Source: a virus
IMG/VR virus record: IMGVR_UViG_3300044716_000973
Coordinates: 1 to 64,000 of that record
Length of the DNA stretch: 64,000 nucleotides
Reading direction: 5' to 3' (one strand)
Below the pieces are notes generated by a model, which was not told the DNA's origin, searched no databases, and worked only from the letters and a program-made list of their open reading frames with translations. This document shows positions 22,659 through 28,066 of this stretch, piece after piece (position 1 is the stretch's first letter; each line of letters opens with the position of its first letter). Position numbers and translations under genes: made by a program.

Positions 22659-22690
22659 GAAAGGGGGCCTTCGGGTCCCCTTTCTTTTTA
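22659..22690 (+). terminator. Rho-independent terminator after gp32 (TTCG tetraloop)
   Basis: 11-bp stem from G22659 to C22669 pairing with 22674-22684, with one G-U pair, a TTCG loop, and a T-run to 22689. It ends the plus-strand block at the point of convergence with the minus-strand tail genes. Confidence 0.92.
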
Positions 22691-24316
22691 TGCCGCTTTC
22701 ATTGGTGTATTGGTTTCTTTATAACCAAATCGGCTAAGGTAGTATTGAACACTATTTCTATCAACCATGGTTGGTAAATTTTCAACTACTGATGAACCAG
22801 CCGCACTAATATTTGGTGGTGATACTACAGGAGGCGGTGTAGGTTTACTTGCATCGTCTTTTATTTTAGCAATTGCCGCAGTTTGCGTAGCAGCTTCATT
22901 TGATATCATTTGTGCAAAATTTGGTGCAGCAGTTGTTAAGCTTCGTGCCATGCCCGGACCAACAACTTTTCCACCAACAGTTCCGATAAACTCTGCTATA
23001 TTTGTAAAAGTATCATCAACTTTTCTTTTTGCAGTTCCTATTACATTCTCTACCATCGATTGCTGTTGACTACCTTCTCCTTGTTCTGGAGAAAGTCCTG
23101 GTCCTTTAAATTCAAAATGTCCGCCGTGACTACCCGCGTATTTTAGTTCGGCCCAACCATATTTGTGCCCATGTTTTTTTATCCATGCATTTGATTCTCC
23201 ATGGATATCCATTGCAATGCCAGATAAATGAAGGGAAGCTGCTGCTGGCTTATAACCCTTTTTTTTCATTTCTTCTTGATATGCACGGGTTCTTTTGCTG
23301 CTAGTAACGTCGCTAGGTTTTACTACACCATTCGAATCTATCATCATTTTATAAAAAGCTTCGGCGCCTTCTTTACTAAACACAACAGGTCGACCCTGCT
23401 GGTCATTACCGCCTGCTATTCCCCAACCTTCACCAGTATTTGGGTGATTGACTTTGATTATTTTGCTTGCTGGTTTTTGTTGTTTAGCAGCATTTGGATC
23501 TGGCTTTCCACCGGCCCATGTAGGTGCGTTGCGTTCCCACCAAGATCTGTCATCTTTTACAGTCAGTGTTTTCTGTGATTCTTTTGCCGGTGGTGTAGCC
23601 GGAGTTATTGGGGTGCGAGTGCCTGCTTCTGCTTGTTCACGTAAAGAAGGTGTTGGCTGTTCTGGAGCTGGTGGAACAGGTGTAGCATCTGTCTTTGGTG
23701 GAGGTGGAGAATATACTGGAGCAGCTTCTGCTTGTTCGCGCAACGGTGCACCAGGTTTTACAGGAGAACTGCTTTCTGAACTACTATCAGGAGTTTCTTC
23801 TGGAACATCGTCTGGGAAAAAACCATTAAAAAAATCTGTAATTTGTGTTACTGTATCAGAAATAAAAGTTGCGGTCTTTAGTGTAAAGTCTACCATTCCT
23901 GTAATGAAGTTCATTACTGGATCATATGCTAACAAACCAAGACCAAGAAGACCGAGCATGCCAAGGCCGCTGCCTGTTGACGGCGATTGAACTCTCTTGG
24001 CGTCCTTATTTTGTTCTAATTGATTTTGGCGTTCTATTCTGTCTTCTTGAGCATCTAACTTGCTATTTTGATACGCAATCTTTTGATTGTTAAGCTTTTG
24101 CTTAAAAAGATTGTCCATTATAGAAAGTTGATCTAAAGCGGCTATAAGCTTTTTAGAATTTAATTCTGGTTTTTTGTCAGGAACGGCGTTATCATTTGCA
24201 ACGGCTTTATTTGCGTTTTTAATATCACTTTCGTTCAATAGAACAGAACCAACAATACCAAAAGACTTGGCAGTATTGGTTGTATCAATAGCGGTAATAA
24301 GAACTTTTAATGCCAT
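22688..24316 (-). CDS. Tail-associated protein with M15-type peptidoglycan peptidase domain (542 aa)
   Basis: The N-terminal part is coiled-coil-like (about 55-110), followed by a hydrophobic patch GLGMLGLLGLGLLAY (117-131) and a Pro-rich linker (175-250). An M15/VanY-like peptidase domain at about 300-405 shows SLHLSGIAMDIHG (H363, D370) and HGGHFEF (H400), the usual zinc ligands. The C-terminal module (about 425-480, EFIGTVGGKVVGPGMARSL) is shared with the upstream gene product. It probably cuts stem-peptide links when the tail enters the cell. It overlaps the upstream gene by one base. A particle-free role in lysis cannot be excluded. Confidence 0.82.
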   Translation of the reverse strand: MALKVLITAIDTTNTAKSFGIVGSVLLNESDIKNANKAVANDNAVPDKKPELNSKKLIAALDQLSIMDNLFKQKLNNQKIAYQNSKLDAQEDRIERQNQLEQNKDAKRVQSPSTGSGLGMLGLLGLGLLAYDPVMNFITGMVDFTLKTATFISDTVTQITDFFNGFFPDDVPEETPDSSSESSSPVKPGAPLREQAEAAPVYSPPPPKTDATPVPPAPEQPTPSLREQAEAGTRTPITPATPPAKESQKTLTVKDDRSWWERNAPTWAGGKPDPNAAKQQKPASKIIKVNHPNTGEGWGIAGGNDQQGRPVVFSKEGAEAFYKMMIDSNGVVKPSDVTSSKRTRAYQEEMKKKGYKPAAASLHLSGIAMDIHGESNAWIKKHGHKYGWAELKYAGSHGGHFEFKGPGLSPEQGEGSQQQSMVENVIGTAKRKVDDTFTNIAEFIGTVGGKVVGPGMARSLTTAAPNFAQMISNEAATQTAAIAKIKDDASKPTPPPVVSPPNISAAGSSVVENLPTMVDRNSVQYYLSRFGYKETNTPMKAA

Positions 24317-26145
24317 TACGCAGCCAACTTATAATGAGCAAGATACTTTTCGATTCCATCACTACCAGGATAGTTTGGATTTATAACAGAGATAGATCCG
24401 GTTGGTGATGCTGACTTTAATGTTTGTGCAGCAGATGGTATGTTTGTAGCAGTAGACGCGGTTTTCTTTTCACCCATTGCAATTTGGTTTTGAATCTTAT
24501 TTGATTCTTCTGAAATAAGTTTTGCAAAATCTGGTCCGGTTGTAGTAAGATTTCTCGAAACACCAGGACCCACAATCTTGCCACCAATATGTCCAATAAA
24601 GTCAGCAATTGTTGTTAGCACTTTATCAGCGCCGGTTGCAATGTCTTCCATTTGAAACCCGCCTGAAGAAGAAGCTGGACCGGCTCCAGGCGCATAGTAT
24701 CCTTCTTGCTTAGCAATGGATTCCATCAATTTTGTTTTTTCACCCTGATTTAAATCAGTATATTTCTTATTAGGATCTATGCCAGCCGTTCCAATAACTT
24801 TTGATGCGTGCGTAGGATCTTCTGCCCACTGTCCTAGTGTTTGCCCAATTGGTCCACTTGAATATTTGTCACGACTTAATTGAGCATCCAAAGCAGCAAA
24901 TCCCGCGGCAGCCGTAGGAAACACTGCAACAGGAGGACCGTTTGTAGACGGAGAAGATCCTACTGCGCCTAGAGATATTGCAAGCGGACCATACATTATA
25001 TTCCCAGGATTGTTTGTACGCGCGGCTATAGTTCCTCCACGGCGTTCTGTAGTTCCATCAGAATATGTTACCGTGGTATATCCTCGACCGCCGTCAACTA
25101 CACCGGTGATAGTCTTGTCTTGAGATGTAGTGTTTGGTTGTGTTGCTGACGGAGCAGTACCATCAACTTTTTCTCCACCTTTTAATTCTTTAGCCATTGC
25201 ATCTGGCGTATATGCACTAGGATCTGCTTCTATTCTTTTTCTGGCTGCCTCAGAAGTACCACCTCTGTTATTAGGTCCATATGCCTCTAAAATATCTTTA
25301 TATTTTGAAGGTAGATTAGCTGCCTTATATGTTTTGCCATCTGGAAGAATATATCCTTCAGTCATACCCTGTTCATTAAGAACGGCTTTCATGCCGTATT
25401 GTTCTAAACCTTTGCGTGATTTATCTGCGTCATTATACGTATCTTTCATGAATTTGTCCATTCCCCATAATATAAGGAGCGAACTTCCTAAAGCGGCTAA
25501 CGCTGGTCCGGCCGCAATAGCATTAACTAAACCTACCAGACTTCTAATATTTTTTAAGAAAGAGAGACCACGTAACCATTTCCAAGCAGTAGAAAATGCT
25601 TTAATGGCTGCTTTAAAACCTTTGAATAATGCACTTAATCCGAGTTTAGCAAAGTTAGTAGCAAATCCTCCTAACACGCCTAGAAGAGTCGAAAGGATTC
25701 CTCCTTTTGATTGTTTTTCATTATCATTTGCTGCGCCGTATCTTTTTCCAAGATCATTGAATATACTATTCTGTTCGATCTTAGCTTCTCTTGCGGCAAG
25801 GGCATTTTCTTCGTAGACTTTTCTATCAAAGTCAATTTGCTTTTTCAGTGTTCCATTAATTGAAACCAGATACTTAACAACGTCTGACAGAAGCTTTTCA
25901 GTATTATCTGACTTTGCTTTGTACGAGCTTTTGGCGTTTGCTGCTGGTAAAGATCCACTGCCAGCAATACGCTGTTGGCCAGCACTTGCAGCCATTCCAA
26001 AGCTGGCATAGATTATATTTGAAGTTTGCTTTTTTGTTGACTGGTCTTTTGAAGAGAGTATAGTAGAGACTCCAGCCGCGATACCGCTAACTGCTTTTTC
26101 TCCGCCTGAAATAACACCTTTTACAGCGTCTAACAATCCCGCCAT
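24316..26145 (-). CDS. Large tail protein, tape-measure-like, with glycan-cleaving-type domain (609 aa)
   Basis: It lies directly after the gp26/gp51 pair, where tailed phages place the tape measure gene. Hydrophobic helical stretches at about 149-230 (GILSTLLGVLGGFATNFAKL and SLVGLVNAIAAGPALAALGS) are typical of tape measures. A domain at about 375-485 begins RTNNPGNIMYGPLA and contains FPTAAAGFAALDAQL, a pattern of phage transglycosylase-like virion proteins. The C-terminal module (512-553, DFIGHIGGKIVGPGVSRNL) is shared with the 542-aa protein. T4 gp29 is of similar length (590 aa). Assignment as gp29 equivalent is inference. Confidence 0.68.
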   Translation of the reverse strand: MAGLLDAVKGVISGGEKAVSGIAAGVSTILSSKDQSTKKQTSNIIYASFGMAASAGQQRIAGSGSLPAANAKSSYKAKSDNTEKLLSDVVKYLVSINGTLKKQIDFDRKVYEENALAAREAKIEQNSIFNDLGKRYGAANDNEKQSKGGILSTLLGVLGGFATNFAKLGLSALFKGFKAAIKAFSTAWKWLRGLSFLKNIRSLVGLVNAIAAGPALAALGSSLLILWGMDKFMKDTYNDADKSRKGLEQYGMKAVLNEQGMTEGYILPDGKTYKAANLPSKYKDILEAYGPNNRGGTSEAARKRIEADPSAYTPDAMAKELKGGEKVDGTAPSATQPNTTSQDKTITGVVDGGRGYTTVTYSDGTTERRGGTIAARTNNPGNIMYGPLAISLGAVGSSPSTNGPPVAVFPTAAAGFAALDAQLSRDKYSSGPIGQTLGQWAEDPTHASKVIGTAGIDPNKKYTDLNQGEKTKLMESIAKQEGYYAPGAGPASSSGGFQMEDIATGADKVLTTIADFIGHIGGKIVGPGVSRNLTTTGPDFAKLISEESNKIQNQIAMGEKKTASTATNIPSAAQTLKSASPTGSISVINPNYPGSDGIEKYLAHYKLAA

Positions 26146-26327
26146 TATTTCTTTCTACTCTCTATTTCTTGTTTCTGCTTTTCTAAAAATTCCATTAACA
26201 TATCAACATATAGATCTCTTTCATATGGAATTAAGCTTTCAATCTCTGTAATAGAATATTTGTGATGCTGAGCCAAAGAGAATACCATTGAATAGTATCT
26301 TGCTAAGTCTGTATGACTCAGCCCCAC
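26145..26327 (-). CDS. 51: gp51-like small tail/hub assembly protein (60 aa)
   Basis: Starts with GTG at 26327 inside the end of the gp26 gene. The sequence HTDLARYYSMVFSLAQHHKY then SITEIESLIPYERDLYVDML resembles the small T4 hub assembly protein that follows gp26. In the -1 frame relative to gp26 it is open through the T-run at 26336-26330, so it may be made mainly as the C-terminal extension of a gp26 frameshift product, like tail assembly chaperones of other phages. Confidence 0.7.
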   Translation of the reverse strand: MGLSHTDLARYYSMVFSLAQHHKYSITEIESLIPYERDLYVDMLMEFLEKQKQEIESRKK

Positions 26328-27025
26328 ATAAAAAAATCTTTGAGATTTGTTAACTCAATTTCCCTATCATTACCAAGAGAATTTTTGTACTTAATAGTAT
26401 GTTGAAGCTTTGGAATACTTTCAAAGAAACCTCTGATCTTTTCAAATGTCGAAACGTCTAAGTTATCTAAAAACTCAGAGATTTCTTTTTCAGAATAATC
26501 AGTTGCTGGATACACACTATCTGCGTCGTAAATAACATCAATACAATTTACAATAAAGAACGTCATGAGTTCTACTTCACTATTGATATCACCCATCTTA
26601 TCTGTAATATCAGCAGTAGGATATCTCATCATCATTCCTACATCATCTGTAATTTCAATCTTTGAATTTGCTTGCTCTGGTATATTTACTTCGATTTCAT
26701 CCAGATTGAGTTCAAAGTCATAAATCTTTTCATCTTCTGTATCTTTATATGATAGCTTAATGATGTTATTTACAGACTTGGCTCTGAGTTTTAAGAACAA
26801 ATATTCTAGATCGAAAATAGCTAGAGTGTCAATGTTCACTTCACTCTGAATACAGTTTCCAAGGATTTGTTTAATTGCTCTAATAATTTCTGCATCATTT
26901 CCACTCTGTTGAGCAATAAGCAGGATTTTTTCTTCTTTCACTAGGAACGGCCGAAATACAATTTTCTGCTGCGAAGATGGAATCACAACATCAAAAAGCG
27001 GCTGATCAATTTTTGGCAAAGTCAT
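26318..27025 (-). CDS. 26: Baseplate hub/tail assembly protein gp26
   Basis: 235 aa, close to T4 gp26 (208 aa). The pattern IDQPLFDVVIPSSQQKIVFR then PFLVKEEKILLIAQQSGNDA and AIKQILGNCIQ is the T4 baseplate protein (gp26) family. T4 gp26 is needed for hub assembly; the gene pair 26/51 is placed like the G/GT tail assembly chaperones of siphophages. The end DFFMWG overlaps the gp51-like start by 10 bases and contains the slippery T-run. Confidence 0.85.
   Translation of the reverse strand: MTLPKIDQPLFDVVIPSSQQKIVFRPFLVKEEKILLIAQQSGNDAEIIRAIKQILGNCIQSEVNIDTLAIFDLEYLFLKLRAKSVNNIIKLSYKDTEDEKIYDFELNLDEIEVNIPEQANSKIEITDDVGMMMRYPTADITDKMGDINSEVELMTFFIVNCIDVIYDADSVYPATDYSEKEISEFLDNLDVSTFEKIRGFFESIPKLQHTIKYKNSLGNDREIELTNLKDFFMWG
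26330..26336 (-). promoter_or_regulatory. Probable -1 ribosomal frameshift site (T TTT TTT)
   Basis: Near the end of gp26 the minus strand reads GAT TTT TTT ATG TGG GGC TGA. Seven consecutive T form a slippery heptamer in the correct phase. A -1 slip continues as TAT GTG GGG CTG AGT into the gp51-like frame, giving a fusion of about 293 aa. Confidence 0.6.
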
Positions 27026-27040
27026 TTTATAAAGTCTCCA

Positions 27041-28066
27041 TTAAGGTGCAGGCGGACCGATTCTGGTCCCACTAAGATTTTTCGTGGTATTTGTTCCTAC
27101 CGAGTCATTTCCACTTATAGGTTTCGGCGGATTATTATTTGTAGCGTTTGGCGAAGAAGCACCGACAGAACTTTGTGGATTTTTCCCAGGACGTCGGCTA
27201 TAATCTTTCTTGCTTTTCTTTTTGTTTTCTTTTTCGGCTGCTGCAGCTTTTGCATCGGCCGCAACTTGCGCATCGACTGCTTCTTCGAGCTTTCCGTTCA
27301 AAGCACGAGGCGTAAGTGTTTGCATATTAGTAAATGCAAATGTTACGGTCAGTTTCTGTACTTCGTTTTCCTGTGCATATGCCAAATTTTGAGATTGAAT
27401 ATTCATAGGAAAAACATCATAAAGAATATATTCTGTTACAGTATATAGTTCTCTATCATATACGTGTATTCTAACAAGAGGACATGTATATTCATCTTTG
27501 TAACCAACTTCATAACCAAGGTAATCATTTAATCCAGGACGTGCATTGAGTTCTAACCCATCTCGTTCGGTAAAGAACATTTGACTGTTGCCTTTGGTTT
27601 CATAAAATACAATTGTATTCATCCACTGATAAAAGAATTCAATTAGTTCAGATCTTTTATCAACCAACCAAGTAAGAGTCAAATCATTAAATTGCATTCC
27701 ATATGGCACTTTTTCTACAGGACCATAACCGTATCTTCTAACATTTTCTTCTTCTAAAACTTGTACAGTTGGTAACACTGCTGATTCACAACGAAGAATT
27801 AATTTATCTGAATTATTTTTTACAAATTCTGTGAGTGGAACGTTTGCTTCAAATCCAAGTCTAAACGGAGCAAATGTTACCAAATAACTGTGTGTTGGTA
27901 ACATGTCATTTTTATTAATTTCAGCTTTAAAACTGTTAATATCAAATCTTCGCGTTTTTCTGGCAGTAACAATGATCTCATCATACGATTCTGTAATAGT
28001 AAACGGATCAGTTCTTAATGGCGCCGGTGGCGTTTTTGCTTCTTCATTTGATGGTGCTTCAGACAT
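27041..28066 (-). CDS. 54: Tail-tube-like baseplate protein, gp54-like (341 aa)
   Basis: Residues 55-265 look like a tail tube fold: YLVTFAPFRLGFEANVPLTE, then LILRCESAVLPTVQVLEEEN, YGYGPVEKVPYGMQFNDLTL and, at the end, VQKLTVTFAFTNMQ. The C-terminus is a Pro/Asn/Lys-rich low-complexity tail. T4 gp54 initiates tube polymerisation on gp48 and has this kind of fold and length (320 aa), so gp54 is the best match. An extra tube paralogue is possible. It starts 1 base inside the end of the gp2-like gene. Confidence 0.62.
   Translation of the reverse strand: MSEAPSNEEAKTPPAPLRTDPFTITESYDEIIVTARKTRRFDINSFKAEINKNDMLPTHSYLVTFAPFRLGFEANVPLTEFVKNNSDKLILRCESAVLPTVQVLEEENVRRYGYGPVEKVPYGMQFNDLTLTWLVDKRSELIEFFYQWMNTIVFYETKGNSQMFFTERDGLELNARPGLNDYLGYEVGYKDEYTCPLVRIHVYDRELYTVTEYILYDVFPMNIQSQNLAYAQENEVQKLTVTFAFTNMQTLTPRALNGKLEEAVDAQVAADAKAAAAEKENKKKSKKDYSRRPGKNPQSSVGASSPNATNNNPPKPISGNDSVGTNTTKNLSGTRIGPPAP

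Follow-up and report, generated by a model that had tools for sequence, protein, structure and literature searches.

The window analyzed here is a stretch of 64,000 nucleotides from a virus (IMG/VR record IMGVR_UViG_3300044716_000973, positions 1 to 64,000). It carries a group of tail genes, all on the minus strand, in the order tail tube, gp26-like ORF, -1 frame, and probable tape measure. The features are as follows.

27041..28066, minus strand: tail tube gene, directly upstream of the gp26-like gene (phrog_45, E 1.9e-35)
26318..27025, minus strand: gp26-like gene, 235 aa, which very probably encodes the short tail assembly chaperone (TAC-N, the analogue of lambda gpG)
26330..26336, minus strand: slippery heptamer T_TTT_TTT, in the 0-frame phase X_XXY_YYZ
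26267..26322, minus strand: predicted 3' stem-loop stimulator, from folding energy and synonymous-codon resampling
26145..26330, minus strand: -1 frame extension (TAC-C, the gp51 C-terminal domain), which would be entered after the slip
24316..26145, minus strand: probable tape measure gene, 609 aa, assigned from position and overlap

The gp26-like ORF ends with ...AAA GAT TTT TTT ATG TGG GGC TGA, and its seven T residues (26336..26330, minus strand) form T_TTT_TTT in the 0-frame phase that is required for tandem -1 slippage. An earlier sequence-only reading had described this ending and had proposed that a slip of one base back leads into an open gp51-like frame, and both statements hold. The frame read after the slip, ...LKDFFYVGLSHTDLARYYS..., is open until the TAA at 26147..26145. 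At the junction the -1 frame reads FF-YVGLSHTDLARYYSMVFSLAQHHKYS..., and the predicted fusion junction is ...KDFFYVGLSH.... The same reading correctly identified a GTG inside gp26, at 26327, as the sole common start codon ahead of the conserved -1 frame domain. Annotators would place the start of the -1 frame extension at this GTG.

The gp26-like product matches PF12322 (E 5.1e-58; 196.8 bits, with a curated cut-off of 24.5) and positions 5-232 of the 282 positions in phrog_150 (E 4.5e-63). The -1 frame domain matches positions 230-276 of phrog_150, and thus begins where the TAC-N match stops, at 232. It also matches phrog_634, which is annotated as 'baseplate hub assembly catalyst' (E 3.3e-22). 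Searches with the locus against phage nucleotide sequences and with the slip site against Rfam each returned no match, and a terminator scan found none.

The gene that follows was thought to look like a tape measure. No family match of the 609-aa product names a tape measure, but its position, its TAATG overlap with the -1 frame, and the annotation 'tail tape measure protein' given to the gene at the homologous position in Cr30 make this identification probable. In the TAATG, the -1 frame stop (26145-26147) overlaps the ATG of the 609-aa gene. The start of a long ORF overlaps the -1 frame stop in 35 of 58 lineages and lies within 20 nt of it in 13 more, and a coupling of tape measure translation to frame-shifted ribosomes is possible. 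The 609-aa gene and the 542-aa gene after it (together 22688-26145) share the C-terminal motif VGPG.[AS]R.LTT..P.FA..IS, and the first of this pair has a weak match to an endolysin family.

Conservation of the slip site

The earlier reading had suggested checking whether the T-run is kept in related phages, and it is. An in-phase heptamer and a -1 frame that is open to the contig limit are present in 79 of 80 IMG/VR relatives (63-100% identity). The exception, L038, has an intact heptamer and one premature stop upstream, where a single-base change creates a TAG roughly 12 codons before the usual end of gp26; this is either a real variant or a sequencing error. We rejected the view that L038 lacks the arrangement, because only a single base has changed and the heptamer is intact. 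All 80 cyanophage-type relatives carry an in-phase T_TTT_TTC at the end of their gp26 gene.

Lineage representatives were defined by clustering at 80% protein identity (n=59). T_TTT_TTN occurs in phase at the homologous place in 55 of the 59 (33 with C, 20 with T, and 2 with G in the last position), so that X and Y of the heptamer are invariant in these representatives and only Z varies. The heptamer ranges from cyanophages to KVP40 and Sinorhizobium phiM9. It is also found in S-PM2, Cr30, KVP40-type VH1, pf16, DLP6, ACG-2014j and further IMG/VR groups, as well as in Aeromonas Ah1, CC2, phiAS5, Cronobacter LPCS28, Mendera and Ochrobactrum OC. The 0-frame stop lies 0, 3, 9 or 24 nt past the heptamer, depending on the lineage, and the heptamer itself is constant.

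The four representatives without the heptamer are Pseudomonas Cygsa01 and three Ackermannviridae, which have ATT TTC at this place and a homologous -1 frame. We count these lineages against frameshifting, because the homologous frame is there without an X_XXY_YYZ heptamer. The corresponding records (L236-L253, L085 and L092) all keep the homologous -1 frame domain. A TAATG that could permit restart is present in L250-L252 and in Cygsa01. No ATG, GTG or TTG is found nearby in the Kuttervirus-type Ackermannviridae.

RNA elements flanking the heptamer

The RNA folding of each sequence was compared with that of versions in which synonymous codons had been resampled from the codons of that same sequence. 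Excess structure is found mainly in the 18 codons directly 3' of the slip site, where the mean z is -1.85. Outside this stretch the mean z ranges from -0.8 to +0.1, and the difference from a folding window 20 codons downstream (-0.25) is significant (Wilcoxon p 4e-7). The 3' stretch of the virus studied here has a z of -2.9. Its predicted structure has a main stem of about 9 bp, GCUGAGUCA / UGGCUCAGC, that begins about 7 nt past the heptamer, and the energy of the stem-loop is -24.0 kcal/mol with a short lower stem included.

The hairpin is weakened in five members of the window clade (L022, L042, L045, L075 and L079). Inspection by eye of the window clade and of the 'MAH' cyanophage group revealed no clear compensatory changes in the 3' stem, so the case for a structure is one of energy statistics. 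In view of this and of the weakened stems, the predicted stem-loop is statistically supported and not proven. Structure is weaker in lineages that have a stop directly after the heptamer (mean z -0.8 vs -2.2).

Most lineages also have a Shine-Dalgarno (SD)-like GGAGG or GAGGG about 9-10 nt 5' of the heptamer. Its mean duplex energy is -6.3, compared with -2.7 for controls, and an energy of -6 or lower is reached by 60% of lineages and 12% of controls. The duplex-energy analysis detected no SD-like element 5' of the heptamer in the window clade. Perhaps the frameshift of the T4 superfamily uses a three-part cassette, composed of a 5' SD-like element, T_TTT_TTN and a 3' stem-loop, from which stimulators have been lost clade by clade. 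The window clade would then have kept the stem-loop without the SD-like element, and the clade with a stop directly after the heptamer would have kept the SD-like element with little structure. Cygsa01 and the Ackermannviridae would enter the same -1 frame without a canonical heptamer. We give this proposal an even chance of being correct.

Two chaperone forms and competing explanations

The locus is, with high probability, the tail assembly chaperone locus of a T4-superfamily phage, at which a -1 slip is predicted from sequence comparisons to yield a short and a long form. The earlier reading had likened the layout to that of G/GT chaperones, and support for a lambda G/GT-type arrangement is good: it comes from the conserved heptamer, phase and frame, the lineages without a start codon, the local RNA structure, the order of the genes and the homology of gp51 to the fusion. 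The slip in cells, its efficiency, and the functions of the proteins are inferred. Most ribosomes would reach the TGA of gp26 and produce the short chaperone, TAC-N. A minority would slip by -1 on T_TTT_TTT, aided by the stem-loop about 7 nt downstream, and would produce the long form, TAC-NC, whose C-terminal domain is of gp51 type. If these proteins act as lambda gpG/gpGT do, the N part might coat the tape measure, the C part might recruit tail tube subunits, and both forms would be absent from the virion.

The gp51-like domain might instead be a separate small protein whose initiation, at GTG 26327 or at a nearby start in relatives, is coupled to termination of gp26. Databases do annotate the domain as a gene of its own, the window clade does have the GTG, and in many cyanophages an ATG lies one to three codons past the slip site. 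We nonetheless consider a separate protein improbable. The GTG is preceded by no SD-like sequence, and a scan of the first ten codons of the -1 frame found no ATG, GTG or TTG in 12 of 58 representatives, nor in CC2, LPCS28, phiAS5 and OC. Given these lineages, separate initiation is not a general explanation. Moreover, it explains neither the invariant in-phase heptamer nor the conservation of residues upstream of any start (FF..L...), and both parts are fused in T4 gp51.

Two further explanations account for the T-run without ribosomal slippage. RNA polymerase could slip on it and generate mixed mRNAs, from which both forms would be made by normal translation, and the seven-T homopolymer of the window clade is compatible with this. 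However, many lineages have only six T residues followed by C or G, and a run of six is short for slippage by bacterial RNA polymerase. The X_XXY_YYZ phase and the mRNA structure that follows it are characteristic of slippage by the ribosome, and transcriptional slippage is therefore very improbable. We find it barely conceivable that the T-run reflects chance, or Phe-Phe conservation combined with AT-rich codon usage. F231 and F232 are indeed nearly invariant, but FF pairs elsewhere in the same proteins are mostly encoded by TTC TTT or TTC TTC (40 of 52 cases), whereas the site has TTT TTN after a T; codon usage is thus not the reason for the heptamer. The codon-usage chance of finding a T before the Phe codon and TTT as the first Phe codon in all 55 representatives is about 10^-22.8, a figure that treats lineages as independent, which they are not fully. 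In phiM9-type phages, TTG (Leu) replaces a Phe codon, so that FF is lost, and the heptamer is still retained.

Models of the short form and of the natural long form (gp51) were used for structural comparison, in place of the -1 fused chain. The model of the short form has a pLDDT of 85. Among the matches listed by Foldseek for the PDB, the HK97 tail assembly chaperone 2ob9 has the highest probability (0.60, E 0.51); no match has E <= 0.001. The match to 2ob9 is at most suggestive of a TAC-like fold for the predicted short form. A sequence search of the PDB with the TAC-N profile gave no relevant match, and Foldseek with the model of T4-type gp51 gave nothing useful.

Known chaperone systems and the origin of T4 gp26 and gp51

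The lambda gpG/gpGT genes have no sequence relation to the locus described here, and they use their own slip heptamer, G_GGA_AAG, rather than T_TTT_TTN. The resemblance lies in the layout. In lambda the tube gene is followed by a short ORF, a -1 ORF and the tape measure gene, and the -1 slip takes place close to where the first ORF ends (PMC5009743). The window probably has the same gene order, and its slip site likewise lies near the end of its first ORF. In Vandenendeviridae and Andersonviridae, TAC-N also ends with a poly-T signal and a -1 frameshift, but the motif is GTTTTT and the phages belong to other families (PMC12846349).

The -1 frame product is absent (for example, in Ah1, CC2 and ACG-2014j) or annotated separately in the records examined; in the CC2 record, the gp51 gene is not annotated. 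Frameshifting is reportedly conserved in several T4-like groups according to the 2022 work of Vladimirov, Gautam and Davidson, with separate genes in the T4 group. That work (Virology 2022;566:9-15) is credited with poly-T slip sites in T4-like TAC-N genes (PMC12846349), and it is cited for T4-like phages that have separate short and long chaperone genes (PMC10885494, PRFect). Because citing papers attribute these slip sites to it, the earlier suggestion that a gp26/gp51 frameshift had not been described for T4-type phages is wrong. As represented in those papers, the T4-like TAC-N/TAC-NC belongs to the same gene family (PF12322, gp26/gp51), with no essential difference known from the present locus. 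By the same accounts, the frameshifted T4-like tail chaperone is already known, and this locus adds another case. Our analysis extends the main point in the literature with the breadth of lineages, the cis-element analysis and the exceptions.

For a long time T4 gp26 and gp51 figured in lists as hub assembly proteins whose function was unclear (PMC3004832), and T4 has been called the exception to the G/GT rule (PMC5009743). The two T4 genes lie on opposite strands, and no frameshift is involved. Of the 282 positions of phrog_150, T4 gp51 (249 aa) matches 13-280 and gp26 (208 aa) only 14-235. The counterpart of gp51 is thus the complete frameshift product, and that of gp26 is the short form. 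Consistent with this homology, a profile comparison of TAC-N with T4-type gp51 gave Prob 98 and E 1.8e-13, and T4 gp51 matches phrog_634 (E 1.2e-23), the same family that is matched by the -1 frame domain in the window. The name 'gp51-like protein' given earlier to the -1 frame product is therefore apt as to homology, but the product is only the C-terminal domain, whereas T4 gp51 equals the entire long form.

The slip site is retained in other Straboviridae (KVP40-type, Ah1, CC2, phiAS5 and LPCS28). Its conservation across many lineages of the T4 superfamily suggests that T4 is derived and that slippage was replaced by two genes. The sequence comparisons fit an ancestral frameshift that gave way to duplicated genes in the T-even branch, although we infer the direction of this change. 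A Klebsiella phage of the Straboviridae (L269:2501-3792) has a long gp51-type gene and a short gp26-type gene in tandem on one strand, an arrangement that is plausible as an intermediate. The N-terminal part of the short gene is missing in this phage.
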